Shown: positions 1 through 46,342 of the stretch, piece by piece | How the letters are laid out: the number at the start of each line of letters is the position of its first letter | How positions within the stretch are numbered: position 1 is the first letter of the stretch | Virus record (IMG/VR): IMGVR_UViG_3300010373_000014 | Location: 1-46,342 of that record | Length of the DNA: 46,342 nt | Strand: one strand, 5' to 3' | From: a virus | Translations under genes and position numbers: made by a program | The notes under the pieces: model-generated | What the model saw: the letters and a program-made list of their open reading frames with translations, nothing else | The model's database searches: none | Told to the model about the DNA's origin: nothing

Positions 1-123
1 ACTGGGTCTGCTGATGGATATTCACTATATGCGCCATTCTGTATAAGAAATCCATGAAGATATGGTGCAACATTTCGCCAACAACCATCATTACCAATAT
101 ATGTTGGTAAACCAGGAGTTAAA
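1..123. repeat. Terminal direct repeat, left copy
   Basis: Bases 1-123 are identical to 46220-46342. Because a minus-strand gene reads in frame through the join, this is best explained as the overlap left when a circular or circularly permuted genome was assembled. A true short terminal redundancy of the virion DNA is possible, but its position inside a gene makes that less likely. Confidence 0.95.
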
Positions 124-3766: not shown

Positions 3767-3982
3767 ATGACTATGTTAGAAAAACAGATCATCCACGCAT
3801 GTTTCCAAGCGGCAATGGCAGCAGACCAAGCATGGTCTATTGAACTGGAAAGAGTGTTCGGACGCGCAGCCGGTGACGCAAGGTATGATGACCGTGGCGA
3901 ACAAACACCACGACTAAAGGCACTACGTGACGCGAAGCTTGCGACGGACGCAGCGTTGTTAGCGTCTTGGAATCAGGTATAA
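3767..3982 (+). CDS. Hypothetical early helical protein (71 aa)
   Basis: ATG at 3767 directly abuts the previous stop, with GGAG inside the upstream gene. The 71-aa product is predicted to be all helical and Ala-rich (FQAAMAADQAWSIELERVFGRAAGD, then LKALRDAKLATDAALLAS). It is the last gene of the small rightward operon and is followed 20 bases later by a strong terminator. No family is recognised. Confidence 0.6.
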   Translation: MTMLEKQIIHACFQAAMAADQAWSIELERVFGRAAGDARYDDRGEQTPRLKALRDAKLATDAALLASWNQV

Positions 3983-4001
3983 CACGTCCAGAAACACCAA
4001 T

Positions 4002-4041
4002 AGCCACGTATCGCGTTACATTGTGATACGTGGCTGTTTTT
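4002..4041 (+). terminator. Rho-independent terminator of the 3048-3982 operon
   Basis: A perfect 11-bp stem (AGCCACGTATC at 4002-4012 with GATACGTGGCT at 4025-4035) is followed by G and five T. It sits just after the last gene of the rightward operon. Confidence 0.85.
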
Positions 4042-4060
4042 ACGTCTACCAGAAACACTA

Positions 4061-4094
4061 AGAGCCCGGTAGCATCATTAGCCTACCGGGCTCT
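4061..4094 (-). terminator. Terminator hairpin after the leftward small gene
   Basis: A perfect 12-bp GC-rich stem (AGAGCCCGGTAG 4061-4072 with CTACCGGGCTCT 4083-4094) lies about 30 bases past the stop of the 4126-4287 gene. The T run on either strand is weak, so it may act in both directions or need Rho. The ten bases CCAGAAACAC precede both this stem and the one at 4002. Confidence 0.65.
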
Positions 4095-4125
4095 ATTCGT
4101 CACCTATCACATGCGGATAGCGTGA

Positions 4126-4287
4126 TTACGAAACTTTCGGTTCCTCGATTGCGATGCCCTTGTTCGTCATTTCTTCACGCGAGTAACGGAGCAAGTCCTG
4201 ATAATCCTTCGGGCTGGCCTTCGCAAGCGCCATGATTTCCGCAGTCGTCGCCACACCGGAATTACGCAGATACTGCAATGCGGTCAT
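4126..4287 (-). CDS. Small leftward early protein (53 aa)
   Basis: ATG at 4287 has AGGATGG six bases upstream and lies about 20 bases past a near-consensus promoter, which favours it over ATGs at 4311 and 4296. The 53-aa product starts MTALQYLRNSGVATTAE and is helical, with a helix-turn-helix-like run (VATTAEIMALAKASPKDYQD). It might be a small regulator, but the motif is too weak to call. It is antisense to the flanking operons and has its own promoter and terminator, so it is an independent transcription unit. Confidence 0.6.
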   Translation of the reverse strand: MTALQYLRNSGVATTAEIMALAKASPKDYQDLLRYSREEMTNKGIAIEEPKVS

Positions 4288-4306
4288 GTTTACCATCCTA
4301 AAGTAA

Positions 4307-4335
4307 ATCATAGCATGCTAACGATATTTTGTCAA
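4307..4335 (-). promoter_or_regulatory. Strong leftward promoter for the 4126-4287 gene
   Basis: On the minus strand TTGACA (4335-4330), a 17-base spacer and TATGAT (4312-4307) form an almost perfect sigma70 promoter. The -10 box lies inside the inner arm of an inverted repeat, so occupancy of that repeat would block it. Confidence 0.85.
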
Positions 4336-4346
4336 CATGCTATGAT
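4307..4346. promoter_or_regulatory. Operator-like inverted repeat over the promoter
   Basis: Perfect 11-bp arms ATCATAGCATG (4307-4317) and CATGCTATGAT (4336-4346) are separated by 18 bases. One arm covers the -10 box and the other lies just upstream of the -35 box, so the two arms bracket the promoter. This suggests a dimeric repressor site. The protein is unknown. Confidence 0.6.
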
Positions 4347-4355
4347 GCGTATCAA

Positions 4356-4691
4356 CTAACTAATCTTCGACTTAGCAAGTGACTCTGCCTCATCCTGCGA
4401 GAAGCCCATCGCCATAGCACTCTTAACAAACTGCGCTTGCTTGAACGCCGGGGAGGCCTCATAAGCCTTCTTGAGTTCCGCTGTAGCCTTCTGATAAGCT
4501 CCAGCCTTTGCACTACGCTCGGCAGTCTGATTTACCCACTTCAGAATCTCGTTATCCGATGGCCAATCTTCACTACCCTTGGCCTCGGTCAGATTGTCAT
4601 ACACATTGTATTCAAACGTATATGCAATCGGCGGATTCTGAACCTGCCCCTGATACTCTTCTACCTGTCCATTACCAGTCTTTGCGGTCAT
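4356..4691 (-). CDS. Hypothetical leftward early protein (111 aa)
   Basis: ATG at 4691 is preceded by TGGAG on the minus strand and by a promoter at 4761-4733. The 111-aa product has a polar N-terminus, a strand (IAYTFEYNVYDNLTEA), then a long charged helical region (NEILKWVNQTAERSAKAGAYQKATAELKKAYEAS), ending in an acidic helix (FSQDEAESLAKS). The YxVYDNLTEA...NEILKWVN arrangement recalls unnamed early proteins of other phages, but I cannot assign a function. The gene points against the operons on both sides and has a GC-richer codon use than most of the genome. Confidence 0.7.
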   Translation of the reverse strand: MTAKTGNGQVEEYQGQVQNPPIAYTFEYNVYDNLTEAKGSEDWPSDNEILKWVNQTAERSAKAGAYQKATAELKKAYEASPAFKQAQFVKSAMAMGFSQDEAESLAKSKIS

Positions 4692-4732
4692 TTGTAACTC
4701 CAGAAATTGTCAAAGAACGAACTAACAAGTAA

Positions 4733-4761
4733 AGCATAACACCGATGCGACGATCTGTCAA
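4733..4761 (-). promoter_or_regulatory. Leftward promoter for the 4356-4691 gene
   Basis: On the minus strand TTGACA (4761-4756), a 17-base spacer and TATGCT (4738-4733). A start near 4726 gives a leader of about 35 bases with the ribosome site TGGAG. Confidence 0.8.
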
Positions 4762-4763
4762 GT

Positions 4764-4837
4764 AGTGAGTCGGACGAGCTATCCGCGACTATGGGTCAAA
4801 TTCTTGACTTAACATGCGCAGTAGCGCCCGACTCACT
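4764..4837. repeat. 10-bp inverted repeat in the control spacer
   Basis: AGTGAGTCGG (4764-4773) and its complement CCGACTCACT (4828-4837) flank a 54-base interval. One arm lies just upstream of the -35 box of the 4733-4761 promoter, the other at the expected start point of the 4844-4872 promoter. Either paired operators or an RNA stem in the leftward leader would fit. Confidence 0.5.
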
Positions 4838-4843
4838 AAGAAC

Positions 4844-4872
4844 ATTGTAGCACAAGTCGTCTGGCGTGTCAA
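4844..4872 (-). promoter_or_regulatory. Second leftward promoter upstream of the 4356-4691 gene
   Basis: On the minus strand TTGACA (4872-4867), a 17-base spacer and TACAAT (4849-4844). It is in tandem with the promoter at 4733-4761 and would give a leader of about 145 bases containing the AGTGAGTCGG arm. Confidence 0.75.
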
Positions 4873-4968
4873 GTGGGCGTATAGTGCTCGGAACGCGGAC
4901 CATCTCTCCCTCTCTGTACAGGCCCCCGGCCACTCCGAGGCCCGCGACCCATTCCACTAAAGTGGACA

Positions 4969-5029
4969 GCTTGTTGGTTGGTCTTGTTCTTTTCTCTATT
5001 TTTTTTTTAGAACAACTATAACAACAAGC
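4969..5029. other. Long two-part stem with a T10 loop
   Basis: GCTTGTTG (4969-4976) pairs with CAACAAGC (5022-5029), and inside it TTGTTCT (4984-4990) pairs with AGAACAA (5009-5015). The terminal loop contains a run of ten T (4999-5008). It lies between divergent promoters, outside any gene. The T run sits in the loop rather than after the stem, so it is not a normal rho-independent terminator. Confidence 0.5.
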
Positions 5030-5058
5030 CAAAGCATAACTGTCAGCCCTTTGACACC

Positions 5059-5087
5059 TTGACAGGCCCGGAAGGGTATGGTATGCT
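5059..5087 (+). promoter_or_regulatory. Main early rightward promoter
   Basis: TTGACA (5059-5064), a 17-base spacer and TATGCT (5082-5087), also with a TGG extended -10. It points into the 14-kb rightward operon. Another TTGACA lies immediately upstream (5051-5056) and one downstream (5132-5137), neither with a matching -10 box. The initial transcript contains ACAGAGAGGGAGA, which also occurs inverted at 4905-4918. Confidence 0.85.
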
Positions 5088-5159
5088 CTACAGAGAGGGA
5101 GACGTGCTCCGAACTCCCGGCCGTCAACCGATTGACACTTATACAATACGGAAGCCAAA

Positions 5160-5387
5160 ATGGTCAAAAAGTTAACGGTAGAGGAATTTGATATACTTAA
5201 GCACGACTACGACATTAACGATTTTACAGGTGGGTGGGGTGGACCAAGAAAAGACGCAATAATCTACATAGTTGCGGATGAAATTTGGTTCATTAGTTCA
5301 GAAGAGACAGAAGCAATAGAAGCAATGCAAAAGCGTAACGTGACAGAAGCACTACTTTATGATGCAATTAGAAAAGGTCCACAATGA
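5160..5387 (+). CDS. Hypothetical early protein, first gene of the rightward operon (75 aa)
   Basis: ATG at 5160, about 65 bases after the predicted start point of the main early promoter; AATACGGAAG upstream could serve as ribosome site. The 75-aa product is acidic and of mixed fold: MVKKLTVEEFDILKHDYD, a Gly/Trp turn (GGWGGPRKD), a strand IIYIVADEIWFIS and a C-terminal helix. No motif is recognised. Its stop overlaps the next ATG by four bases. First genes after an early promoter often act on host functions, but nothing here shows how. Confidence 0.7.
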   Translation: MVKKLTVEEFDILKHDYDINDFTGGWGGPRKDAIIYIVADEIWFISSEETEAIEAMQKRNVTEALLYDAIRKGPQ

Positions 5388-5668
5388 GCAAGAAGAAAAA
5401 GCACACTCACAAATATCATAAAGTAGAATGTTTCGGCACAAAGCTATTCTTCTGCGCGCTTCCCGGCTGTCCACACCATATGCCCAAATATTACGAGAAT
5501 GGTTTGATTGGTAAATTCTCAATTTGTTGGGGCTGTGAAAAAGAATTTATCCTAGACGAACGCGCAATGCAAATGGATATGCCAACATGTATTAATTGCG
5601 TCTTGCCGGGCGAATTTGTCAATGCTGGCAACATTATCGACGATGTAAAAGATCCTAATGACTTGTGA
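5384..5668 (+). CDS. Zinc-binding protein with several Cys pairs (94 aa)
   Basis: ATG at 5384 is coupled to the upstream stop (ATGA). The 94-aa product has a basic N-terminus (MSKKKKHTHKYHK) and three cysteine knuckles: CALPGCPHH (about residues 26-34), CWGCEKEF (about 48-55) and CINC (about 69-72). These probably bind one or two zinc ions. It is of the nucleic-acid- or protein-binding type with no enzyme motif. The next gene is also cysteine-rich, so the two may work together. Confidence 0.75.
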   Translation: MSKKKKHTHKYHKVECFGTKLFFCALPGCPHHMPKYYENGLIGKFSICWGCEKEFILDERAMQMDMPTCINCVLPGEFVNAGNIIDDVKDPNDL

Positions 5669-6441
5669 AAATAAACCCATCTAATGGAATATGTCAATAC
5701 TGCAAACGTGAGCAGGAAGACGAAAATTATCGGTATTGTGGTAAGAAATGTAGATGGTTATACGGACAAATTAGAAAAATGAATCATTTATTTGTTAAAT
5801 CATCCGATGGCTCGTGTGAAACATGCCATCGCAAATATCTAGATCACACTGCGGCTGCACGCTGCGATTCGTGTCAAAAATGTGGCATCTGTAACATAGT
5901 GGATGATCTTCTATTATGCGATACATGTGCCGATAAGATAAAAAATAATCAATTTGATCTTATCGAACGCAGCCGAGCAATCGATAGCGCAATTGGTAGT
6001 AATCAGGACTTCTATAACGCAGCTACGATAAGCCTGATAGATGTCCGCGCAGCCATCGACGCAAACGATGACATCCTTAACAAAGATGATGCATTTAAAC
6101 AAGAGATATTGGTGAGGTACGAAAAGTTCTCTGCGCGCTTGTTCGAATTAGATAATGAGCGTTTCAAAACGCAATTAAATCTTTCAGTCGTCAAAAAGTC
6201 ACTTGATGACATAGCAGCGTCATTGCGCGCAGACGAGCGTGAGCGCATTAAAATCGCTGACGCGAATTATGTTCCGCCGGCAAAGAATAAGCCTGTTAAG
6301 CCACGTGTTGCTAAGGCTGACAAGAAATCCGTATTCGAGACAATGGTAGAAAACTTCGCTAAGATGAACGGCATTAGCGAAACGGAAGCTCGGATAACAT
6401 TAACGCAAGGTATGAATAAGATGGGGAAAAAGGTTGATTAA
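5665..6441 (+). CDS. Multi-zinc-finger protein with coiled coil (258 aa)
   Basis: GTG at 5665 overlaps the upstream TGA, which selects this start. The N-terminal third is crowded with cysteines: CQYCKREQ...CGKKC, then CETCHRKYLD...CDSCQKCGIC, then CDTC. These could form two or three zinc sites like treble-clef or B-box fingers. Residues about 95-200 form a long charged helix, and the C-terminus (SVFETMVENFAKMNGISETEARITLTQGM) looks like a small helical bundle. The layout suggests a nucleic-acid-binding adaptor. No catalytic motif is present and no family is recognised. Confidence 0.75.
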   Translation: MKINPSNGICQYCKREQEDENYRYCGKKCRWLYGQIRKMNHLFVKSSDGSCETCHRKYLDHTAAARCDSCQKCGICNIVDDLLLCDTCADKIKNNQFDLIERSRAIDSAIGSNQDFYNAATISLIDVRAAIDANDDILNKDDAFKQEILVRYEKFSARLFELDNERFKTQLNLSVVKKSLDDIAASLRADERERIKIADANYVPPAKNKPVKPRVAKADKKSVFETMVENFAKMNGISETEARITLTQGMNKMGKKVD

Positions 6442-6442
6442 C

Positions 6443-6589
6443 ATGGAATCAACAAACGAACAAAAATTATATAATGCATTACAAGAATTGGTAAATACAG
6501 CAAGGCCATCATTTCCTAACACACCATATCGTGATGCTTTAGAATCAGCTAAAAAGTTATTGAAAGAAGTTGTAACAAAATCACTATAG
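6443..6589 (+). CDS. Small helical protein (48 aa)
   Basis: ATG at 6443 starts two bases after the previous stop, with GGGGAAAAAGG upstream as a plausible ribosome site; TAG at 6587-6589. The 48-aa product (MESTNEQKLYNALQELVNTA...) is two amphipathic helices separated by a Pro-rich turn (RPSFPNTPYR). Good packing in the operon supports it being real. Function unknown. Confidence 0.55.
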   Translation: MESTNEQKLYNALQELVNTARPSFPNTPYRDALESAKKLLKEVVTKSL

Positions 6590-6602
6590 GCTTAGTGCGC
6601 TA

Positions 6603-6631
6603 TTACATCACGTGGGCATTATGTGATGTAA
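6603..6631. promoter_or_regulatory. Inverted repeat ahead of the SprT-SNF2 gene
   Basis: Perfect 9-bp arms TTACATCAC (6603-6611) and GTGATGTAA (6623-6631) with an 11-base spacer, 17 bases before ATG 6649. It could be an operator, a leader-RNA stem or a processing site. It argues mildly for the ATG at 6649 over the GTG at 6595. Confidence 0.5.
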
Positions 6632-6648
6632 TAGGTTGTATAACTTAT

Positions 6649-8691
6649 ATGGACAGAAAAATAGCAATCGCAACATTACGTGATCTATTAGATTCGCATG
6701 GAAAGAACGATTGGAAGGTCCGTCTATATGCTGATTTATATAAGCCATTTTTAGGAATGACGGATGCGCGCTCGAAAACTGTCACGTTAAACGCGCACCA
6801 TGTCGATACGCATCCAGATGTAGAAATTCTTAATACAATCCGTCATGAACTAGCACATGTTCTAGTAGGAACACAACATGGACATGATGCTATATGGGCA
6901 GAAAAAGCGCGCGAAGTAGGATGCGATAACACACTACCATGTGCAACATATTCCTTATCACCCGCCGCTGTAGACACGATACGAAGCGGCGCAACATTAG
7001 AAGTAGAATTTACTGAAGAAACACAAGTTATTCGGCGAATGAGCTACAAAACCACAAAATTTGTCGATAAATGTGAGAAATGTGGCAAAATCGCCGAAAT
7101 TAAGTCTAAGCTCAAACTAACTAATAAACTTAACGAAGTAACAGAAGTAGTTACGTTAGTATGTGGACATCTTCGATTTATTAAGTTAGGAATCGAATCA
7201 CCATATCACGAAATGTTTTTTGATGGTGATTCTTCATGTTCACATAAATGGGGCACCGATAAACAACGTACCACATGCTCTGTATGTGGCGCGCATCGTC
7301 TATACGAGTATCAAGTTGCCGGCGCACAAGCCATTGAACGCGCCAATGGGCGTATTGGCGTATTCGATGAAATGGGGCTTGGCAAAACTATCCAAGCCCT
7401 CGCTTATTTAAAGTATCATCCTGAACTTCGGCCATTCTTGTGGATTACAAAGAGTGGCATAAAATTTCAGCATGGCAAAGAAATTATCCGTTTATTAGGA
7501 CGCCATGAGCTACCACAAGTCGTAATGAGCGGTAAAGATACACTAATCGACGGAATGAACGTTATCGCGAGTTACGATATATTTAGACGATTACCGCGTG
7601 AAATGTTTGCAGCACATAAATTTAAGTCAGTTGTGCTAGATGAATGCCAAGCAATAAAGAATCCCGATAGCACACGAACAGGTGAAATTAGACAAGTTGT
7701 TCGTGATATACCGTCTATTATACCATTAAGCGGTACGCCGTGGAAGAATCGTGGTAGTGAGTTTTTCGTTGTGCTCAATATGTTAGCTCCTGCGCGCTTC
7801 AGTTCATATCAACATTTTAAGGATCGTTGGGTAGGAACATATTGGGATGGTTCGCGTGAGAAAGAAGGCGGCATCATTAATCCAGAGAAATTCAAGGAAC
7901 ATATAAAGGATATTGCCATTAGGCGCGAACGCAAAGAAGTTTTACCAGAGCTACCACTCATCAACAGGACTAAAATCCTTTGTGAAGTGGACAAGGTTGC
8001 TAGGACAATGTATAATGCCGAAGAAGATAAGTTAGTTCGTCTTCTTAATGATGCTGCTATCGATGGCGCTGAAGGATCATTTTCTACACAAAGTGAGGCT
8101 AACAGCATCCTTATCGTAATGCGCCAAATCGTCGGCATTAGCAAAGTTCCTACAACCGTTGAGTTCGTTGAAGAATTTCTCGAAGACACGGATAGAAAGA
8201 TTGTAGTATTTGTTCATCATAAAAAGTGCGGTGAGCTGATTCTCGAACAGTTGAGAACGTATTGTGCTGAAAATAATCATCGGACGCCATTAAAACTTAC
8301 AGCGGACATGAACTCATTGGAACGTGCAGAGGTACAAGATAAGTTTAATGACTCGTATCGTGTATTAGTAGCATCAACACTCGCATCAGGTGAGGGATTA
8401 AATCTCCAATCTTGTAGCGACTGTGTAATCCACGAACGCCAATGGAATCCGGCAAATGAAGAACAAGCCGAAGGCCGATTTATTCGTATCGGCCAATTAG
8501 CGCAATCTGTCAACGCAGTATATGTGCATGGTGATGATACCGTAGATACAATATTCGATGGTATTGTCGAAGCGAAGCGCCGACAGTTCCACGAAGCAAT
8601 GAATAATAGCGAATTAGTTGGATGGAATGAAAGTAATTTGTTGAGTGAATTGGTTAACCAAATTCGTAATCGTAAACGTACATCTAAATGA
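6649..8691 (+). CDS. SprT-like metalloprotease fused to SNF2-family helicase
   Basis: 680 aa from ATG 6649; a GTG at 6595 would add 18 residues encoded across the hairpin. The N-terminal domain has the zinc-protease signature HELAH (about residues 66-70) with a third His in HGHDAIW (about 77-83), as in SprT/Spartan proteins. Cysteine pairs follow (CEKCG, LVCGH, and CSH...CSVCG). A full SWI2/SNF2 motor then begins: DEMGLGKT Walker A (about 240-247), DECQ box (about 331-334), SGTPWKN, and near the C-terminus ASGEGLN and QAEGRFIRIGQ. SNF2 proteins move along DNA using ATP; SprT proteases cut DNA-bound proteins. The fusion suggests removal of roadblocks or DNA-protein crosslinks, which is inference. 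It is followed by a coupled gene at 8688. Confidence 0.9.
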   Translation: MDRKIAIATLRDLLDSHGKNDWKVRLYADLYKPFLGMTDARSKTVTLNAHHVDTHPDVEILNTIRHELAHVLVGTQHGHDAIWAEKAREVGCDNTLPCATYSLSPAAVDTIRSGATLEVEFTEETQVIRRMSYKTTKFVDKCEKCGKIAEIKSKLKLTNKLNEVTEVVTLVCGHLRFIKLGIESPYHEMFFDGDSSCSHKWGTDKQRTTCSVCGAHRLYEYQVAGAQAIERANGRIGVFDEMGLGKTIQALAYLKYHPELRPFLWITKSGIKFQHGKEIIRLLGRHELPQVVMSGKDTLIDGMNVIASYDIFRRLPREMFAAHKFKSVVLDECQAIKNPDSTRTGEIRQVVRDIPSIIPLSGTPWKNRGSEFFVVLNMLAPARFSSYQHFKDRWVGTYWDGSREKEGGIINPEKFKEHIKDIAIRRERKEVLPELPLINRTKILCEVDKVARTMYNAEEDKLVRLLNDAAIDGAEGSFSTQSEANSILIVMRQIVGISKVPTTVEFVEEFLEDTDRKIVVFVHHKKCGELILEQLRTYCAENNHRTPLKLTADMNSLERAEVQDKFNDSYRVLVASTLASGEGLNLQSCSDCVIHERQWNPANEEQAEGRFIRIGQLAQSVNAVYVHGDDTVDTIFDGIVEAKRRQFHEAMNNSELVGWNESNLLSELVNQIRNRKRTSK

Positions 8692-10005: not shown

Positions 10006-10234
10006 TGAAAAGTCTAAAGATGAACTAAAACGTGACAAAGCGGCTCGAATTTTGGCAATGATCGAGCGCGCATACATCATGTTAGAAGATTTAGAAGAAG
10101 ATGTTAAGGAATGGTCATCGACTGACGAAATTAGTCCTGATGATATGATGAAGCATACAATGCACCAAAACGAAACGTGTGCTAATTTACAATTTTTCAT
10201 CGACTACCTACAGAATAAACGGTCGCGCACATGA
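9998..10234 (+). CDS. Hypothetical helical protein (78 aa)
   Basis: ATG at 9998 overlaps the previous gene by eight bases; an upstream TTG frame is less likely. The 78-aa product is all helical and highly charged (MNNEKSKDELKRDKAARIL..., then EDLEEDVKEWSS), and may form a coiled coil. The gene overlaps the next (nuclease) start by four bases, so it is tightly coupled to it. Function unknown. Confidence 0.65.
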   Translation: MNNEKSKDELKRDKAARILAMIERAYIMLEDLEEDVKEWSSTDEISPDDMMKHTMHQNETCANLQFFIDYLQNKRSRT

Positions 10235-11145
10235 AACAACATATCATCCTAGACGCCACAATGCTATCAACATTAATGGCATGTCCGCGCCTTGCTGATT
10301 ATCGTTTTAATCGTAATCTTGTTCTTAAGGAAGGTAAGTCCAATAGCCTAGAAGCCGGTACCCTAGTACACATTATCCTAGAACATTTTAATCGTAGTCT
10401 TATAGCCGGTAACACACGCGACGTTGCTATTGATCATGGATTCATAGCAGCAAATGAATTTCTTCGTGGCAGTTATCACGTAAATAATACATATTTATGT
10501 CCCGATGATGATTATGCTAGCGAAAAATTCATAGAACAAGAAGAATCAGCAAAATGGGATATTGGTTGGAAATTTGTCCTGAATACTATGAGGGAATATT
10601 TTGATTATTGGCGCAATGATTCCTTTACCGTTCTCAACGCAGAACATGTGATTACGGAAACAATTTATGAAGACGACGAACTGGTGATTGGATGGAAAGC
10701 CAAATTCGATGCAATAGTTGATATGACCAATGGTTTAATGCCAATGGATCATAAAACAATGAAACAGCGTCGTGATAGCAATAGTAACAATATCCAATTT
10801 ATGGGCCAATGTTTCCTAACGAAGTCACGGAACATGATGGTTAATAAGATTGGATTCCAAACATCATTAAAGCCACATGAAAAATTTGAACGGTCCATTA
10901 TAAGTTATACCGCTGATCGGTTGGCCGAGTTCGCTAATGAAATTGTACCTCATTATGGTCGGATGCTATTAGCATACAATGAAGCTGAAAATTGGCCCGC
11001 CAATTTCACACATTGTGAGAATAAATTTGGCGCATGTGAATTCTACAAACATGACGTATGTAATAATGATAGGCGCATGAGAGATGAAACGTTAAAGATT
11101 TATTGGAAAGAAGGAAAGAAATGGGATCCGGTGAACAATGATTAA
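10231..11145 (+). CDS. Cas4-like PD-(D/E)XK nuclease with Fe-S cysteines
   Basis: 304 aa, ATG at 10231 coupled to the upstream stop. The N-terminus has SxLMACPRLADYRF with Cys18, then a GTLVHIILEHF helix. The nuclease core shows an Asp in AKFDAIVD and MDHKTMK, a D-x-K-type end of the PD-(D/E)XK motif. Three more cysteines lie at the C-terminus (about 262, 269, 277). One N-terminal plus three C-terminal cysteines is the 4Fe-4S arrangement of Cas4 and AddB-type nucleases. Phages use such enzymes to trim DNA ends for recombination. A CRISPR array is not present, so a recombination role is favoured, supported by the Sak4-like gene just downstream. Confidence 0.85.
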   Translation: MKQHIILDATMLSTLMACPRLADYRFNRNLVLKEGKSNSLEAGTLVHIILEHFNRSLIAGNTRDVAIDHGFIAANEFLRGSYHVNNTYLCPDDDYASEKFIEQEESAKWDIGWKFVLNTMREYFDYWRNDSFTVLNAEHVITETIYEDDELVIGWKAKFDAIVDMTNGLMPMDHKTMKQRRDSNSNNIQFMGQCFLTKSRNMMVNKIGFQTSLKPHEKFERSIISYTADRLAEFANEIVPHYGRMLLAYNEAENWPANFTHCENKFGACEFYKHDVCNNDRRMRDETLKIYWKEGKKWDPVNND

Positions 11146-11305: not shown

Positions 11306-11493
11306 CTAACCAATATGTAATCAAATTTCATCACCTCTATTACAATCAATATCCTGGTACATATCATGAGGATATTAATCTCGCAAGTCATTTTATACAT
11401 CCCGATGTAGCTAAGCAAATTATTATTGACAAGAAGTTGCCATTGGCGTGTAAAGTTTATCAGATTAACGTCGTCGAAAATGAGGTTAAGTAA
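11302..11493 (+). CDS. Hypothetical small protein (63 aa)
   Basis: ATG at 11302 is preceded by GAGGAG in the upstream gene and overlaps its stop. The 63-aa product (MTNQYVIKFHHLYYNQYPG...) has a His/Tyr-rich N-terminal strand, then a helix (HPDVAKQIIID) and a final strand (KVYQINVVENEVK). It ends one base into the recombinase start (TAATG). No motif is recognised. Confidence 0.65.
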   Translation: MTNQYVIKFHHLYYNQYPGTYHEDINLASHFIHPDVAKQIIIDKKLPLACKVYQINVVENEVK

Positions 11494-12275
11494 TGCCTAC
11501 GATGGAGAATGTTCCAAATAATGTCCATTATACTCTATTAAAAGGTGAGCCTGGAACAAGAAAAAGTACGGCGGCGTTAGGATGGCCTAAACCATTATAT
11601 TTCTTTTCGTACGACGGCAAGATGAACGCATTACGTCTGCCAATGAAGTTATGGAACATTGATCCTAAATCTGTAAGCTTCGATGATTATACCGATTGGA
11701 CGGCTGCGCGCTCCAAGTTAGAATCTTTTGCAATAAACTGTCCATATAAGACTATCGTCATCGATAGCATTACATCCTGCGCGGACAGTATGTTAAGGCA
11801 GACGATTAAGGCCAAGATGGGCAAGCAGCGAAGCTCAGGCGCGCAAGCAGGAAAGAATGTTGGCGGAATTGCAGTAAATGAATTAGAAGATTATAATGCC
11901 GAAGCTGCTGGCTTAACGGAGCTAATCGCGCTAACAAAAGATATTCACAAATATCATAAGATTGATATCATCCTAATAGCACACGTTGTTCGCACAGATT
12001 ACAAGTCACCTGATGGCAAGATGAACATTAGCCGCGTATTAGTAACGGCGGGCAAAAAGCCAGCCGCAAAGATACCTGCATATTGTGATGAAACATATCA
12101 TTTTGGATTTGAGCCATCGGCAATCGTTGGCGAGGCCGGCGACCTAATCGTCGAAACAGTCAATAATGGCGAGGACTACGCGAGAACAACCCTAACACTA
12201 CCAAGCACTATAAAGTTAAAAAACGATAACCTTTACGAAAAGTACATTCTTCCGGCTATCAACTCACAAGGATAA
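11493..12275 (+). CDS. Sak4-like RecA-fold recombinase ATPase
   Basis: 260 aa. Walker A is GEPGTRKST at about residues 19-27; Walker B is TIVIDSI at about 89-95, followed by a conserved-looking Ser/Thr. The central region (LIALTKDIHKYHKIDIILIAHVVRTD) ends a strand with the His often seen at the ATPase sensor position. This is the AAA_24/Sak4 type of phage single-strand annealing or RecA-like protein. It lies between a Cas4-like nuclease and a candidate ssDNA-binding protein, the usual phage recombination trio. An alternative is a general phage P-loop protein, but the gene context fits recombination. Confidence 0.85.
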   Translation: MPTMENVPNNVHYTLLKGEPGTRKSTAALGWPKPLYFFSYDGKMNALRLPMKLWNIDPKSVSFDDYTDWTAARSKLESFAINCPYKTIVIDSITSCADSMLRQTIKAKMGKQRSSGAQAGKNVGGIAVNELEDYNAEAAGLTELIALTKDIHKYHKIDIILIAHVVRTDYKSPDGKMNISRVLVTAGKKPAAKIPAYCDETYHFGFEPSAIVGEAGDLIVETVNNGEDYARTTLTLPSTIKLKNDNLYEKYILPAINSQG

Positions 12276-12775: not shown

Positions 12776-12860
12776 GCCCCTATGATGGAATTGGCAGACA
12801 TAAGGGACTTAAAATCCCTCGACGTAAGTCATATAGGTTCGAGTCCTATTGGGGGCACCA
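12776..12860 (+). tRNA. tRNA-Leu (UAA)
   Basis: 85 bases with encoded CCA. The acceptor GCCCCTA pairs with TGGGGGC (one G-T). The anticodon stem AGGGA/TCCCT encloses loop CTTAAAA with anticodon TAA. The variable arm GAC-GTAA-GTC is long, as in class II tRNAs, and the T arm is ATAGG-TTCGAGT-CCTAT. This matches leucine. It probably supplements the host pool for the TTA codons frequent in this AT-rich genome. Confidence 0.95.
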
Positions 12861-14416: not shown

Positions 14417-14664
14417 CAACCGAGCGCGCAAAATATGATGCATCCGAAACATGGCAGGATAAGATACGTGTCATGGCACTATATCATTATAGTCAAATTG
14501 CATCACAGGATAAGTGGCTCATTCGTAACACCGCAGAGTTCTTTGGAATAAGCACAAGCACTGTAGCAGAGAATTTGTTTATAGCAAAGCACATGAGTGA
14601 AGTTAAGGAATTGGGTAGTAGGAATAAGGCGCTTAAGAAGCTGCGCGGATTCAAAGTCACATGA
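14413..14664 (+). CDS. Small helix-turn-helix protein (83 aa)
   Basis: ATG at 14413 overlaps the previous stop and its own TGA overlaps the polymerase ATG. The sequence WLIRNTAEFFGISTSTVAEN (about residues 36-55) is a clear helix-turn-helix, followed by a basic helix (SRNKALKKLRGFKVT). It is likely to bind DNA, perhaps as a regulator of the replication genes or an origin-binding accessory. Coupling to the polymerase gene supports a replication link, which is inference. Confidence 0.75.
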   Translation: MTTERAKYDASETWQDKIRVMALYHYSQIASQDKWLIRNTAEFFGISTSTVAENLFIAKHMSEVKELGSRNKALKKLRGFKVT

Positions 14665-17135
14665 TTGATGATACTTACGTTCCTGGACGTGGTGCATTTA
14701 ATCCTAAAATATGCTTTGTGGGGGAGGCGCCAAGTTATGACGAAGTAAAGTCCCTTACACCATTTACTGGTCCGTCCGGTAAGTTTTTTGATCAACTTCT
14801 GCGCGATGTTGGCATTAACAGATCAGAATGTTGGGTAACAAATGTATGTAAATACATGGTTACACCAAATAGTAAAAATGGACGCCCCATACCATTTGCT
14901 GTAAGAGCACAACGTGATGGTATTGATCTAAGCGCGCAGATAGATGAACTTAGGCGCGAAATAACACAACTTAACCCAAATGTTATAGTGCCGCTAGGCG
15001 GAACAGCATTATGGGCCGTTACGGGTAAAAAGTCCATCAAATCATTTCGTGGTAGCATCATAAGCGGAATGGGCCATAAAGTAATTGGCACATATCATCC
15101 TGCTCATATCCTATATTCCGAAGGCGAAGTAAAAGGATATTGGAATAAGCAGGTAATGGCATTTGATCTTAAGCGTGCAAAGATTCAATCGGAGTTTCCT
15201 GGTGTTAAACTTCCACAAAGAACGCTTCAGATTGCTAGGTCATCTCATCAATTTGCAGAATTCATTAACCGCAACAGACACCGCAATAATCCAGCTATTG
15301 ACATTGAAGCACAGAAATGTATTCCCATTTGTGTTGGCATCTCCTTTACGCCGACTGAAGGAATTACTGTACCTCTTTGGAATAGTTGGAATATCAGTGA
15401 TTTGCCTACCGCTGAGATTGTTAACATTTGGAAACTCCTTGCTGATTTCTTTGGTAAACATGACGTTGTAGGCCAAAACTTCGGATATGATCGAGATAAA
15501 CTCAAAAGATTAGGCTTTCTCGTCCGCGCGCTCCATAGCGACACGATGTTAAAAGCCTTTACCATAAATCCCGAGCTACCGAAGAATTTAGCCTTTAATA
15601 CGTCCATTTACACCGAAGAACCATATTACAAAGATGAAGGAATGTATGAAGGTTCCATCGATGACTTACTTATCGGCTGCGCGCGTGATGCTTGTGTAAC
15701 AAAAGAAATTGATTTAGCGATGGATAATGACCTGCGCGAGTTAGGCTTAACGGATTTTTATCGTAACTTTATCCTACCGTTACATGGATTATATGCCTTT
15801 ACAGAAAATAGTGATTCCATCGAACAATCCGGAATCCTCGTTGATGAGTCCATCCGAAAGGAACTTCTGCAGAAATATATTGCATGGGATGAGAAAATTA
15901 GATATGAGTTGTTTAGACTTACAGGATCTTATATCAATACATCATCGCCTAAGCAAGTTTCTGAACTCTTGTACAACACATGGCGATTACCTATCCGCGC
16001 GGGAACAGGTGAGGAAGTACTTACACAATTACTCAACAACACAGTTAAGAATGAAGTTCATAAACGAGGAATTGAGCTCATTCTTGAGAGCAGACGAGTA
16101 AAGAAAACTATTGGTACATATCTCCTAACACCAACTGACTTTGATGGTAGGATGCGCACAAGTTTCTTCATATGCCTAGAAACTGGCCGCAGCGCAACCA
16201 TGCAACAAGAACCACCTGTCCGTCCTCTTATTGATGGCATAGATGAGAATGGTAAGAAATGTAAACGTACTATTGGCATGGCCTTCCAAACTATCACGAA
16301 ACATGGTGATATTGGACAGGACATACGTAAGATGTTGGTGCCCGATAAGGATTGTGTATTTATTCAGGCTGACTTATCACAGGCTGAAGCGCGTGTCGTA
16401 ACATTATTGGCGGATGACCTTGACACATTAAGGTTATATGATGAACATGACATTCATGCTATCACTGCTTCTTGGTTTTTCGGTGGGACTGAATCTGATT
16501 ATTCTAAAAAAGTATTGGGATTTGAAAGTCCTTATCGCTTTGCTGGCAAAACTCTTAGACATGCTGGTCATCTCGGCGCTTCCAAACGTCGAGCAAGCAT
16601 TGAACTCAATACCCAAGCTAGAAAAAACAAGATTGACTTCACTATATCAGAAGCACAGGCTGAGAAGTCATTAAAGATATTTCATGCGCGCTTTCCAAAA
16701 TTAAAACAGGTATTTCATAATGGAATTATTGAAGCTCTTAATAAAAACAGAAGAATCACAGCTCCTGTACCCTATGGGATCGAGGCGAATAAAGGTGGAA
16801 CGAGAATTTTCTATGAACGATTTGGAGATGAACTCAATAGACAGGCATTTAGCTATATCCCTCAACGCACGGTCTCTGAACATACTAAAGCAGCAGGTCT
16901 TAGAATTAGAAAGAATCATCAATGGATAAAAATTGTAAACGAAGCACATGACGCGCTTTTACTAATGGTGCCTGAAAAGCGCGCAGAAGAATGCGCCCTC
17001 ATAGTACGTGAAGAAATGCAACGGCCAATTGACTTCGCCAATTGTACTCTTAAACGAGGACTACTTGTGATACCGAGTGATATCGAATATGGATACAATT
17101 ATCAAGAGTTGTCGAAGTTTAAGTGGAGTAAATAA
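14661..17135 (+). CDS. DNA polymerase I family protein with N-terminal uracil-DNA-glycosylase domain
   Basis: 824 aa. Residues about 15-165 are a family-4-like UDG domain: GEAPSYDEV, TPFTGPSGKFFDQLL and HPAHIL are recognisable, but the Fe-S cysteines are missing (no CxxC near the start; KCRPP is replaced by KYMVTP). Residues about 190-360 form a 3'-5' exonuclease with DIE (Exo I), GQNFGYDRD (Exo II) and ARDA (Exo III), so proofreading should be active. The A-family polymerase follows: motif A is QADLSQAEAR (about 569-578), motif B is RFAGKTLRHAGHLG (626-639), and motif C is NEAHDALLL, with Ala where HDE is usual. Phage SPO1 polymerase also carries a UDG-like N-terminus. It is the main replicase of this phage and is coupled to the HTH gene. 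Confidence 0.95.
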   Translation: MIDDTYVPGRGAFNPKICFVGEAPSYDEVKSLTPFTGPSGKFFDQLLRDVGINRSECWVTNVCKYMVTPNSKNGRPIPFAVRAQRDGIDLSAQIDELRREITQLNPNVIVPLGGTALWAVTGKKSIKSFRGSIISGMGHKVIGTYHPAHILYSEGEVKGYWNKQVMAFDLKRAKIQSEFPGVKLPQRTLQIARSSHQFAEFINRNRHRNNPAIDIEAQKCIPICVGISFTPTEGITVPLWNSWNISDLPTAEIVNIWKLLADFFGKHDVVGQNFGYDRDKLKRLGFLVRALHSDTMLKAFTINPELPKNLAFNTSIYTEEPYYKDEGMYEGSIDDLLIGCARDACVTKEIDLAMDNDLRELGLTDFYRNFILPLHGLYAFTENSDSIEQSGILVDESIRKELLQKYIAWDEKIRYELFRLTGSYINTSSPKQVSELLYNTWRLPIRAGTGEEVLTQLLNNTVKNEVHKRGIELILESRRVKKTIGTYLLTPTDFDGRMRTSFFICLETGRSATMQQEPPVRPLIDGIDENGKKCKRTIGMAFQTITKHGDIGQDIRKMLVPDKDCVFIQADLSQAEARVVTLLADDLDTLRLYDEHDIHAITASWFFGGTESDYSKKVLGFESPYRFAGKTLRHAGHLGASKRRASIELNTQARKNKIDFTISEAQAEKSLKIFHARFPKLKQVFHNGIIEALNKNRRITAPVPYGIEANKGGTRIFYERFGDELNRQAFSYIPQRTVSEHTKAAGLRIRKNHQWIKIVNEAHDALLLMVPEKRAEECALIVREEMQRPIDFANCTLKRGLLVIPSDIEYGYNYQELSKFKWSK

Positions 17136-17377
17136 TGGCTATTTGTCCTATTTGTGGAAATGATATGTCATCTAGTAAATGTTGGTGTTATGTATCTGGT
17201 GACAATTACATTTCGCCCTCTAGAAATAGTAAAATTGATAACATTACTATAGAACAACTAACAAATGAAGAAATCCTCATAATCAGTAATTACATCGCCA
17301 ATGATTATGTACCACACGAAGAGCCTGCGCGCTCGGCAATCTTAAAGTTGCATCGTATTGCGGAGAAATATCGGTGA
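17135..17377 (+). CDS. Zinc-ribbon small protein after the polymerase (80 aa)
   Basis: ATG at 17135 shares a base with the polymerase stop (TAATG). The product starts MAICPICGNDMSSSKCWCYV, with two CxC/CxxC knuckles forming a zinc ribbon, then a helical C-terminal half (EEILIISNYIANDYV...LKLHRIAEKYR). It overlaps the next start (GTGA). Position between polymerase and DUF3987 gene suggests a replication accessory. Confidence 0.7.
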   Translation: MAICPICGNDMSSSKCWCYVSGDNYISPSRNSKIDNITIEQLTNEEILIISNYIANDYVPHEEPARSAILKLHRIAEKYR

Positions 17378-18570
17378 CATCGTGGCTCGATACCATAGTA
17401 GAACAACATGCTGAAAGTGAGTCACCACGTAACTATTGGTATTGGTCCGCAATGGCTGCAATGTCTGCCGTGATCAAAGACAAGATATGGATGGACCGAC
17501 ATTATTATAAACTTTACCCTAACATATATGTGATGTTATTCGGACCCTCAGGGATAAAGAAAGGTCCACCTGTTAATATGGCCCGTAAGTTAGTAGATCA
17601 AATAAATAATACACGTGTAATAAATGGCCGTTCATCTATACAAGGCATCTTAAAGAAGTTAGGCGAAGCCGAAACGAAACCAGGCGGTCACATTATCAAC
17701 ACAAGTTGCGGTTTTATTTGCAGCAGCGAAATGGCCTCATCTGTTGTAGAAGATAAGGCGTTCATGACCATTCTCACAGATGTATATGACAGGAATTATC
17801 GGGATGGACAATGGGAATCCTTACTAAAAGGTGAGAGCTTCAAATTAAAAGATGTTACCGTTACATTACTTGGCGCAGTTAATCAAGCACATAGTGATGC
17901 GTTGTTTACGAAAACAGATATTAATGGTGGCTTCTTTGCGCGCACGTTCTTCATTAACGAATCAAAACCACAGCGCCGTAATTCACTAATGTATGCGCCA
18001 TCGATCATACCAGATTATAAACAACTATCACAACACCTACGCGCGCTCAGCCAATTATCCGGTGAAATCATATGCACCGATGACGCAAAACAATTCATGG
18101 ATTCGTGGTATAACAATTTCTGGGAAAACATTGATTCGCAAGGTTATGAAGATCCAACGGGTACCATCAACAGATACCAAGATAGCGTTCTTAAGGTGGC
18201 TATCTTAATGAGCCTAGCGAAATCAACGAATTTGGTAGTAGAGCGCGCAGAAATAGAATCTGCCATCCACTATTGCGAACGTCTTATTGGTAATGTCCGT
18301 AAGGCAACTTTAGGAATTGGTAATGCTGTGCTTGGTAATCAAAAAAAGATAGCCATTATGGAACTAGTTGATCGTCCTAACCATATGATCTCACGTGCCC
18401 AACTACATAAGAAATTTTGGATGCATGGCTCCTTATCCGAATGGAACGAGATAATGGAACAGTTAGTTATAGCAGGTATTATTAACGCTGAAACAATGGG
18501 CAATCAACTCGTTTATCGAATGAACGATGAACAGATTAATGGATGGCAACGGCATTTTGAGGGGAAATAA
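17374..18570 (+). CDS. DUF3987-type P-loop protein, candidate replicative helicase
   Basis: 398 aa; GTG at 17374 overlaps the upstream TGA. It starts WLDTIVEQHAESESPRNYW. The strand-loop YPNIYVMLFGPSGIKKGPP (about residues 48-66) is P-loop-like although the usual Ser/Thr after Lys-Gly is replaced by Pro. Then follow GFICSSEMASSVVEDKAFM, a Walker-B-like position (ILTDVYDR), LLGAVNQAHSD and an Arg segment (GGFFARTFFI). This order is typical of DUF3987 proteins annotated as primase/helicase in phages. The altered Walker A leaves ATPase activity uncertain. A C-terminal winged-helix-like segment (ISRAQLHKKFWMHGSLSEWN) may bind DNA. Confidence 0.75.
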   Translation: MTSWLDTIVEQHAESESPRNYWYWSAMAAMSAVIKDKIWMDRHYYKLYPNIYVMLFGPSGIKKGPPVNMARKLVDQINNTRVINGRSSIQGILKKLGEAETKPGGHIINTSCGFICSSEMASSVVEDKAFMTILTDVYDRNYRDGQWESLLKGESFKLKDVTVTLLGAVNQAHSDALFTKTDINGGFFARTFFINESKPQRRNSLMYAPSIIPDYKQLSQHLRALSQLSGEIICTDDAKQFMDSWYNNFWENIDSQGYEDPTGTINRYQDSVLKVAILMSLAKSTNLVVERAEIESAIHYCERLIGNVRKATLGIGNAVLGNQKKIAIMELVDRPNHMISRAQLHKKFWMHGSLSEWNEIMEQLVIAGIINAETMGNQLVYRMNDEQINGWQRHFEGK

Positions 18571-18571
18571 C

Positions 18572-18646
18572 GGGCCCATAGCTTAACGGTAAAGCTGCGT
18601 CCTCATAAGACGTTGATTCTACGTTCGAATCGTAGTGGGCCCACCA
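18572..18646 (+). tRNA. tRNA-Met (CAU)
   Basis: 75 bases with encoded CCA. The acceptor GGGCCCA pairs perfectly with TGGGCCC; anticodon stem GCGTC/GACGT encloses CTCATAA with anticodon CAT; the T arm is CTACG-TTCGAAT-CGTAG. An elongator methionine tRNA is most likely, but a CAU anticodon modified to lysidine (isoleucine AUA) cannot be excluded from sequence. It begins two bases after the stop of the DUF3987 gene. Confidence 0.9.
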
Positions 18647-18652
18647 AATTTT

Positions 18653-18850
18653 ATGGACAAACAACAAATAATAAAGCTCATCAAATTAGCCAATGATAAT
18701 CCAAATATCAATGAGGCAAATTCCTCCGCGCGCTTGGTATGTAAACTTCTTGCTGATTATTCATTTCCACCCGAATCACCACAAGAATTAGATCCAATGA
18801 AGTGGTGTTTGCGCCATCATTGTCCTCGTAACACGTGTAAATGTGGATAA
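18653..18850 (+). CDS. Small DUF2786-like protein with Cys-rich tail (65 aa)
   Basis: ATG at 18653, seven bases after the tRNA. The N-terminal part (IIKLIKLANDNPNINEANSS...RLVCKLLADY) matches the helical start of DUF2786 proteins (KI.KLL.LA.d.n.nEa..A...a..L). The C-terminus is a short cysteine cluster (CLRHHCPRNTCKCG) able to bind zinc. It is much shorter than full DUF2786 proteins, so it may be a remnant or a stand-alone domain. Function unknown. Confidence 0.6.
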   Translation: MDKQQIIKLIKLANDNPNINEANSSARLVCKLLADYSFPPESPQELDPMKWCLRHHCPRNTCKCG

Positions 18851-19187
18851 ACAACTTCCTTATAAAGACCTTTGCACACTAATCGCCGCGCGCTCCATAT
18901 GCGCCGTACAAGTAGGATCACTTATTTATGATCATCATGGCATTATTAGTTGGGGTTGGAATCATTCAGGCCATACTGGTAATGGTGCTCATGCGGAAAG
19001 TGAAGCAATTAAGCGCGCAAATAGAAAACGTCTGCGAGGAAGTACGATTATCACAGTCGCTATCAGACGTAGGAAGATCATTAACTCATTTCCATGCCCC
19101 AATTGCTATGCCCGGATACGTAACGCGCAGATACGATTCGTAGAATGTCATAATCATCTTCGTGAATGGATGCGATATAAAATATGA
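18843..19187 (+). CDS. Cytidine/deoxycytidylate deaminase-like protein
   Basis: 114 aa; GTG at 18843 overlaps the previous stop. The zinc-deaminase signature is visible: HAESEAI (about residues 50-56, His ligand and catalytic Glu) and PCPNCYARI (about 84-92, two Cys ligands), with the strand SLIYDHHGIISWGWNHSG before them. This is the cytidine deaminase fold. Possible substrates are dCMP, a free nucleoside, or a base in nucleic acid. Phages often use such enzymes to supply dUMP for dTTP. Its presence with a UDG-bearing polymerase is notable because deamination makes uracil. Confidence 0.8.
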   Translation: MDKQLPYKDLCTLIAARSICAVQVGSLIYDHHGIISWGWNHSGHTGNGAHAESEAIKRANRKRLRGSTIITVAIRRRKIINSFPCPNCYARIRNAQIRFVECHNHLREWMRYKI

Positions 19188-45969: not shown

Positions 45970-46342
45970 TTATGAAACTCCATCAAACGCACCAACTGCT
46001 CCGCGCGATAATGCTAAATCACCCCATGCTTGGCTAATTGGTTGTGGTAAATCATACCAATATGCATTATAACTTGTACATTCACCATTAATCATATCTA
46101 GTGGTGTATTTGGTCCCCAAGCTGAGAATGTTGGCCAATTTGCATAACCATGAGTAAATCTATTAGCTAAACTACCAGAAATATTCGGATCAAATTGATC
46201 ACCAAAGTTTTTTTCTAGAACTGGGTCTGCTGATGGATATTCACTATATGCGCCATTCTGTATAAGAAATCCATGAAGATATGGTGCAACATTTCGCCAA
46301 CAACCATCATTACCAATATATGTTGGTAAACCAGGAGTTAAA
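45970..46342 (-). CDS. Putative hydrolase-like protein (C-terminal part, continues from 1-716)
   Basis: C-terminal end of the 321-aa frame that begins at 716 and crosses the join. This part reads FGDQFDPNISGSLANRFTHG, NWPTFSAWGPNTPLDMINGE and WYDLPQPISQAWGDLALSRG, ending TAA at 45970-45972. Aromatic-rich and polar, with no membrane segment. Bases 46220-46342 duplicate 1-123. Whole-gene notes are given with the N-terminal part. Confidence 0.6.
   Translation of the reverse strand, partial: LTPGLPTYIGNDGCWRNVAPYLHGFLIQNGAYSEYPSADPVLEKNFGDQFDPNISGSLANRFTHGYANWPTFSAWGPNTPLDMINGECTSYNAYWYDLPQPISQAWGDLALSRGAVGAFDGVS
46220..46342. repeat. Terminal direct repeat, right copy
   Basis: Identical to bases 1-123; see the left copy. 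Collapsing the two copies gives a circle of about 46,219 bp in which the interrupted minus-strand gene is whole. Confidence 0.95.

Follow-up and report, generated by a model that had tools for sequence, protein, structure and literature searches.

A phage protein combining a SprT-like metalloprotease domain with an SNF2 motor in a single chain

The viral record IMGVR_UViG_3300010373_000014 (46,342 nucleotides, analysed over its whole length and referred to here as the window) encodes a protein in which a SprT-like metalloprotease domain is joined, through two zinc ribbons, to a complete SNF2 motor in a single polypeptide (Table 1). The domains are individually known and their combination is new, and the architecture is spread across a large uncultured phage lineage rather than being unique to the window phage. 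A SprT protease and an SNF2 motor in one chain appear to be undescribed. A full-text literature search, within the portions of the sources that it returned, found no description of a SprT-SNF2 fusion in a phage, in agreement with the first-pass annotation, which knew of no described phage system with such a design.

That annotation had also proposed that a protease domain, zinc ribbons and a full SNF2 helicase occur in one phage protein, and Pfam matches, conserved ligands and AlphaFold models confirm it. Searches of the 680-aa product against Pfam recovered all three expected domains, namely SprT-like (PF10263, residues 32-98, E 8.9e-7), SNF2-rel_dom (PF00176, residues 238-493, E 5e-23) and Helicase_C (PF00271, residues 505-615, E 4.5e-15). 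The two motor domains scored above their curated cut-offs, as did the SprT-like domain (29.2-31.7 bits versus a cut-off of 25.6). The protease domain contains the HExxH motif and downstream histidine of SprT-like proteins, and the motor, which also matches phrog_62 (E 7e-78), possesses both RecA-like lobes, Walker A, Walker B and motif VI, as expected of an SNF2 ATPase. The zinc ribbons (CxxC...CxH and CxH...CxxC) are placed between the two. The start methionine is nearly invariant among relatives. Each of the 15 members of the N-terminal alignment matches PF10263 individually (E 0.01 or better), which excludes chance or a frameshift artefact as the source of the SprT domain.

Table 1 Features of the fusion gene and its neighbourhood in the window.
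Feature	Position	Strand	Evidence or remark
SprT-SNF2 fusion gene	6649..8691	+	680 aa; uninterrupted frame, conserved start Met, Pfam SprT-like/SNF2-rel_dom/Helicase_C
SprT metalloprotease domain, residues 1-100	6649..6948	+	Pfam, AlphaFold, VIA-align to SPRTN 6mdx
HELAH zinc/catalytic motif, residues 66-70	6844..6858	+	H66, E67, H70 invariant (76/76)
His79, third zinc ligand	6883..6885	+	Invariant (76/76); in no search pattern used
Zinc ribbon 1, C142xxC145...C172xH174	7072..7170	+	Invariant; present also in SprT-less relatives
Zinc ribbon 2, C197xH199...C210xxC213	7237..7287	+	Invariant in 76/76 SprT-bearing relatives
SNF2 two-lobe motor, residues 216-655	7294..8613	+	Pfam, phrog_62, VIA-align INO80/SWR1/CSB
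Walker A GLGKT, residues 243-247	7375..7389	+	G245, K246 invariant
Walker B DECQ, residues 331-334	7639..7650	+	D331, E332 invariant
Helicase motif VI QAEGRFIRIGQ, residues 606-616	8464..8496	+	R610, R613, G615 invariant where present
Conserved upstream neighbour, 258 aa, Cys-rich N-terminus	5665..6441	+	No known family; family searches negative
Downstream gene, 156 aa	8688..9158	+	ATGA overlap with fusion gene stop codon
PD-(D/E)XK exonuclease of same module	10231..11145	+	Pfam PF12705 / phrog_1218
Sak4-like recombinase/annealing protein	11493..12275	+	phrog_124, E 2e-16; syntenic
Uracil-DNA glycosylase (UDG) fused to N-terminus of family A DNA polymerase	14661..17135	+	Pfam UDG, DNA_pol_A
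Primase-like protein (DUF3987)	17374..18570	+	Pfam PF13148, phrog_14296 DNA primase

AlphaFold modelling of the SprT part, based on 15 aligned sequences, predicted a gluzincin-type fold at residues 1-100 with pLDDT mostly between 80 and 97. A zinc-protease fold had been anticipated at residues 20-130, and the model places one there, with the fold proper at residues 1-100. Human SPRTN was the top VIA-align match of this model (6mdx, Z 10.9 over 99 residues, rmsd 2.5 Å) and also the second (6mdw, Z 10.8), followed by jannalysin/selecase (minigluzincins) and Wss1. Selecase and Wss1 metallopeptidases (Z 7-10) have the gluzincin-type fold in common with the phage domain, but there is no SNF2 motor in these entries. 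Foldseek recovered the same families with a probability of 1.00 but modest E values (2e-3 to 2e-2). The models indicate that the SprT domain is similar to Spartan in both its fold and its active site. The structural alignment with SPRTN ends at residue 102, the zinc ribbon comes after the protease, and the zinc subdomain with which SPRTN binds ssDNA was not recovered in this match. The full-length model had a pLDDT of 82.9 and a pTM of 0.67, and its motor part (residues ~180-670) matched INO80, SWR1 and CSB at Z 25-27.

SPRTN (Spartan) is the human DNA-dependent protease for DNA-protein crosslinks. It shares the SprT fold and the HExxH...H active site with the phage protein but has no fused motor, its partner helicase FANCJ working in trans, whereas the phage protein has an SNF2 motor of its own. 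Stand-alone phage SprT proteins (phrog_1006, the mycobacteriophage 'SprT-like protease' and jumbo-phage SprT) contain the same domain, the closer ones at roughly 35-45% identity over about 95 residues. However, they are short, single-domain proteins, and no SNF2 gene was annotated beside them in the five annotated cases examined. Phage SNF2 helicases of the phrog_62 type (Rhodothermus phage RM378, Thermus phages phiLo and MN1) have the same type of motor at 25-29% identity, but a different N-terminal domain where the window protein has SprT and the ribbons.

A survey of the architecture in phages, as the first-pass annotation had suggested, found at least 76 further IMG/VR proteins that share it, with active site and zinc ligands intact in all. 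Including the window, at least 77 distinct proteins carry the SprT active site and the CxxC motif, and 76 were aligned. These relatives were retrieved by alignment-based scans; the single-protein query (P0001) gave no match in viral contigs. Relatives from motor-based scans align over residues 1-680 at 41-50% identity, and an N-terminal scan gave at least 80 matches spanning residues 1-221. A strict Walker A pattern had scored 21 relatives as unfused; the ten inspected were full-length fused proteins whose Walker A deviates from the pattern (e.g., DDMGLGKT, HEMGLGKS) or, in L252, carries an insert. The L252 insert is intein-like (328 aa, GQILSDT...VTHN; ORF 3950-7123) and splits Walker A in frame (MGLGK|T); lacking an N-terminal Cys, it is possibly a class 3 intein.

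Searches beyond this lineage returned no fusion. No place covering 80% of the query was found in 50,697 phage records and 72,556 plasmids, and the best 80 matches of a GTDB contig scan contained stand-alone SprT only. A sample of about 1,280 bacterial genomes, drawn from the phyla to which four hits belong, gave no N-terminal match at E 1e-30, in a search whose positive control consisted of virus records only, the SprT-bearing ones being detected at 1e-89 to 1e-131. A bacterial SprT (G751) in a 1234-aa open frame was rejected as an independent fusion: the frame is a spurious high-GC one overlapping other genes, with a stand-alone-type SprT and its zinc ribbon at the C-terminal end.

The 76 aligned proteins show no variation at H66, E67, H70, H79 and W83 or at any of the eight zinc-ribbon ligands. 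Because this set was partly selected on HExxH, through a search pattern and a filter that bias catalytic conservation there, conservation was re-measured in a set picked by motor motifs alone, in which HExxH and the third histidine were kept in all 23 SprT-bearing proteins. Median dN/dS over disjoint pairs was 0.053 for SprT and 0.085 for the motor, both rough values since many pairs approach saturation at synonymous sites. These estimates suggest that purifying selection on SprT is at least as strong as that on the motor.

The distribution of SprT on the motor trees needs three changes, which are most readily explained by one gain followed by two losses. Forcing all SprT-bearing proteins into one motor clade was rejected (p-AU 0.0008). 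Compared with 80 stand-alone SprT domains, the fused ones formed one clade with 100/100 support, in an alignment with few columns and long branches. The trees therefore indicate a single fusion event, in which SprT was apparently added once to a pre-existing phage SNF2 helicase, and they support an accessory status of SprT, which two phages seem to have subsequently lost while retaining the motor. The closest motor relative of the window protein (L024, 58% identity) retains an N-terminal SprT stump without the active site, seen as a weak profile match at positions 1-69, and the SprT-less protein of L019 begins just ahead of ribbon 1. The contigs of SprT-less relatives contained no stand-alone SprT at another position, suggesting that the domain had not merely become a separate gene in them. 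More distant SprT-less relatives retain both ribbon 1 and the motor, and this ribbon therefore goes with the motor. Among related uncultured phages, ribbon-SNF2 proteins such as those of L025, L031 and L036 share ribbon 1, the SNF2 motor and often the same gene module but are without SprT, and they probably mark the pre-fusion state.

Identical direct repeats of 123 bp are found at both ends of the window (1-123 and 46220-46342), and the record thus probably represents an entire genome of about 46.2 kb. The fusion gene lies in a rightward cluster in which starts and stops overlap. Its synteny with the exonuclease and Sak4 genes is maintained in SprT-bearing relatives and in several that lack SprT, the exonuclease being syntenic in 64 SprT-bearing and 7 SprT-less loci, and the UDG-polymerase and primase-like genes follow farther downstream in the window. 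This conserved placement in a replication and recombination module favours a role of the fusion protein in phage replication and recombination. A homologue of the 258-aa upstream gene occurs in 59 of 92 SprT-bearing loci and also beside both phages that lost SprT; its Cys-rich product is a possible partner of the fusion protein. Homologues of the 156-aa downstream gene occur in 10 related loci, the available identities being 52-54%. The window also contains genes for a dCMP-deaminase-like small protein (18843-19187), tRNA-Leu (TAA, 12776-12860) and tRNA-Met (CAT, 18572-18646).

For the proteolysis, motor action and substrate of the fusion protein, we infer a mechanism from the architecture and from related families. 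On balance, we favour a protease that tracks along DNA and removes protein roadblocks while the phage genome replicates and recombines. The zinc ribbons, together with the SNF2 motor, would load onto phage DNA, and the ATPase, behaving like its family, would translocate along the duplex until it meets a bound or covalently crosslinked protein, which would be displaced or partly unfolded. The tethered SprT zinc protease could then cut the exposed polypeptide, allowing the polymerase, exonuclease and recombinase to proceed. The closest precedent for such a mechanism involves two separate human proteins: FANCJ translocates into a crosslinked protein and unfolds it, enabling cleavage by SPRTN (PMC12279946). 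The narrower proposal that the phage protein is a self-contained, motor-coupled protease for DNA-protein crosslinks and roadblocks, the single-polypeptide counterpart of FANCJ plus SPRTN, has about an even chance of being correct. SNF2 proteins usually translocate on double-stranded DNA rather than unwind it as FANCJ does, and unfolding may therefore proceed in another way here. SprT is absent from some near relatives, which indicates that the domain is not essential in all hosts.

A remover of bound proteins had already been suggested by the first-pass annotation, with host nucleoid proteins and defence complexes among its targets. The architecture, the intact catalytic residues and the Spartan-like fold are consistent with the remover itself, but those two targets are disfavoured by the placement of the gene, which favours clearance of the phage's own DNA during replication. 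Host takeover, in which the motor tracks the host chromosome while SprT digests nucleoid proteins or RNA polymerase, so that nucleotides are released and host expression ceases, therefore seems unlikely. For jumbo phages, host proteins were proposed as the targets of SprT proteins on the basis of the patchy distribution of the latter (PMC7824862), the stand-alone SprT of Vibrio phage QD01 (L262) adjoins an Alt ADP-ribosylase and an Alc-like host transcription inhibitor, and the loss of SprT in two lineages would fit host dependence. However, the gene is fixed in its module near the exonuclease and Sak4, whether SprT is present or absent. The degradation of host machinery loaded on phage DNA, whether defence complexes or repair proteins (restriction or RecBCD-like machines, for example), is more doubtful still. 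DNA tracking combined with a protease would suit the removal of DNA-loaded complexes, and loss in some lineages is typical of arms-race genes, but SprT appears to be under strong purifying selection and lacks the fast change that arms-race proteins usually show. Matches to the SNF2 defence proteins ZorD, DpdE and DrmD (PADLOC/NCBIfam) were partial, confined to the generic SNF2 core and far below NCBIfam cut-offs, and membership in these families was rejected, as the shared motor core alone matches.

Two further readings concern what SprT itself might do. It could switch replication stages by cleaving itself or another product of the module, with the motor bringing it to the fork. SPRTN is known for autocatalytic inactivation (PMC7826251), and a conserved Cys-rich gene lies immediately upstream as a possible partner; the rest of the module nevertheless stays in place after SprT loss, and we give this reading little credence. 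Least probable by far is a DNA- or protein-binding module without proteolysis. Some protease-fold domains do act non-catalytically, but all four catalytic and zinc residues are invariant here, and the phages that lost SprT removed the domain instead of mutating it.

How proteins that are stuck or crosslinked to DNA are removed is poorly understood in prokaryotes and their viruses in comparison with eukaryotes. The present protein, in which a Spartan-type protease and a DNA motor are naturally fused, offers a simple one-protein system for testing motor-coupled proteolysis on DNA, for which the natural SprT-less sister proteins provide a ready-made control.
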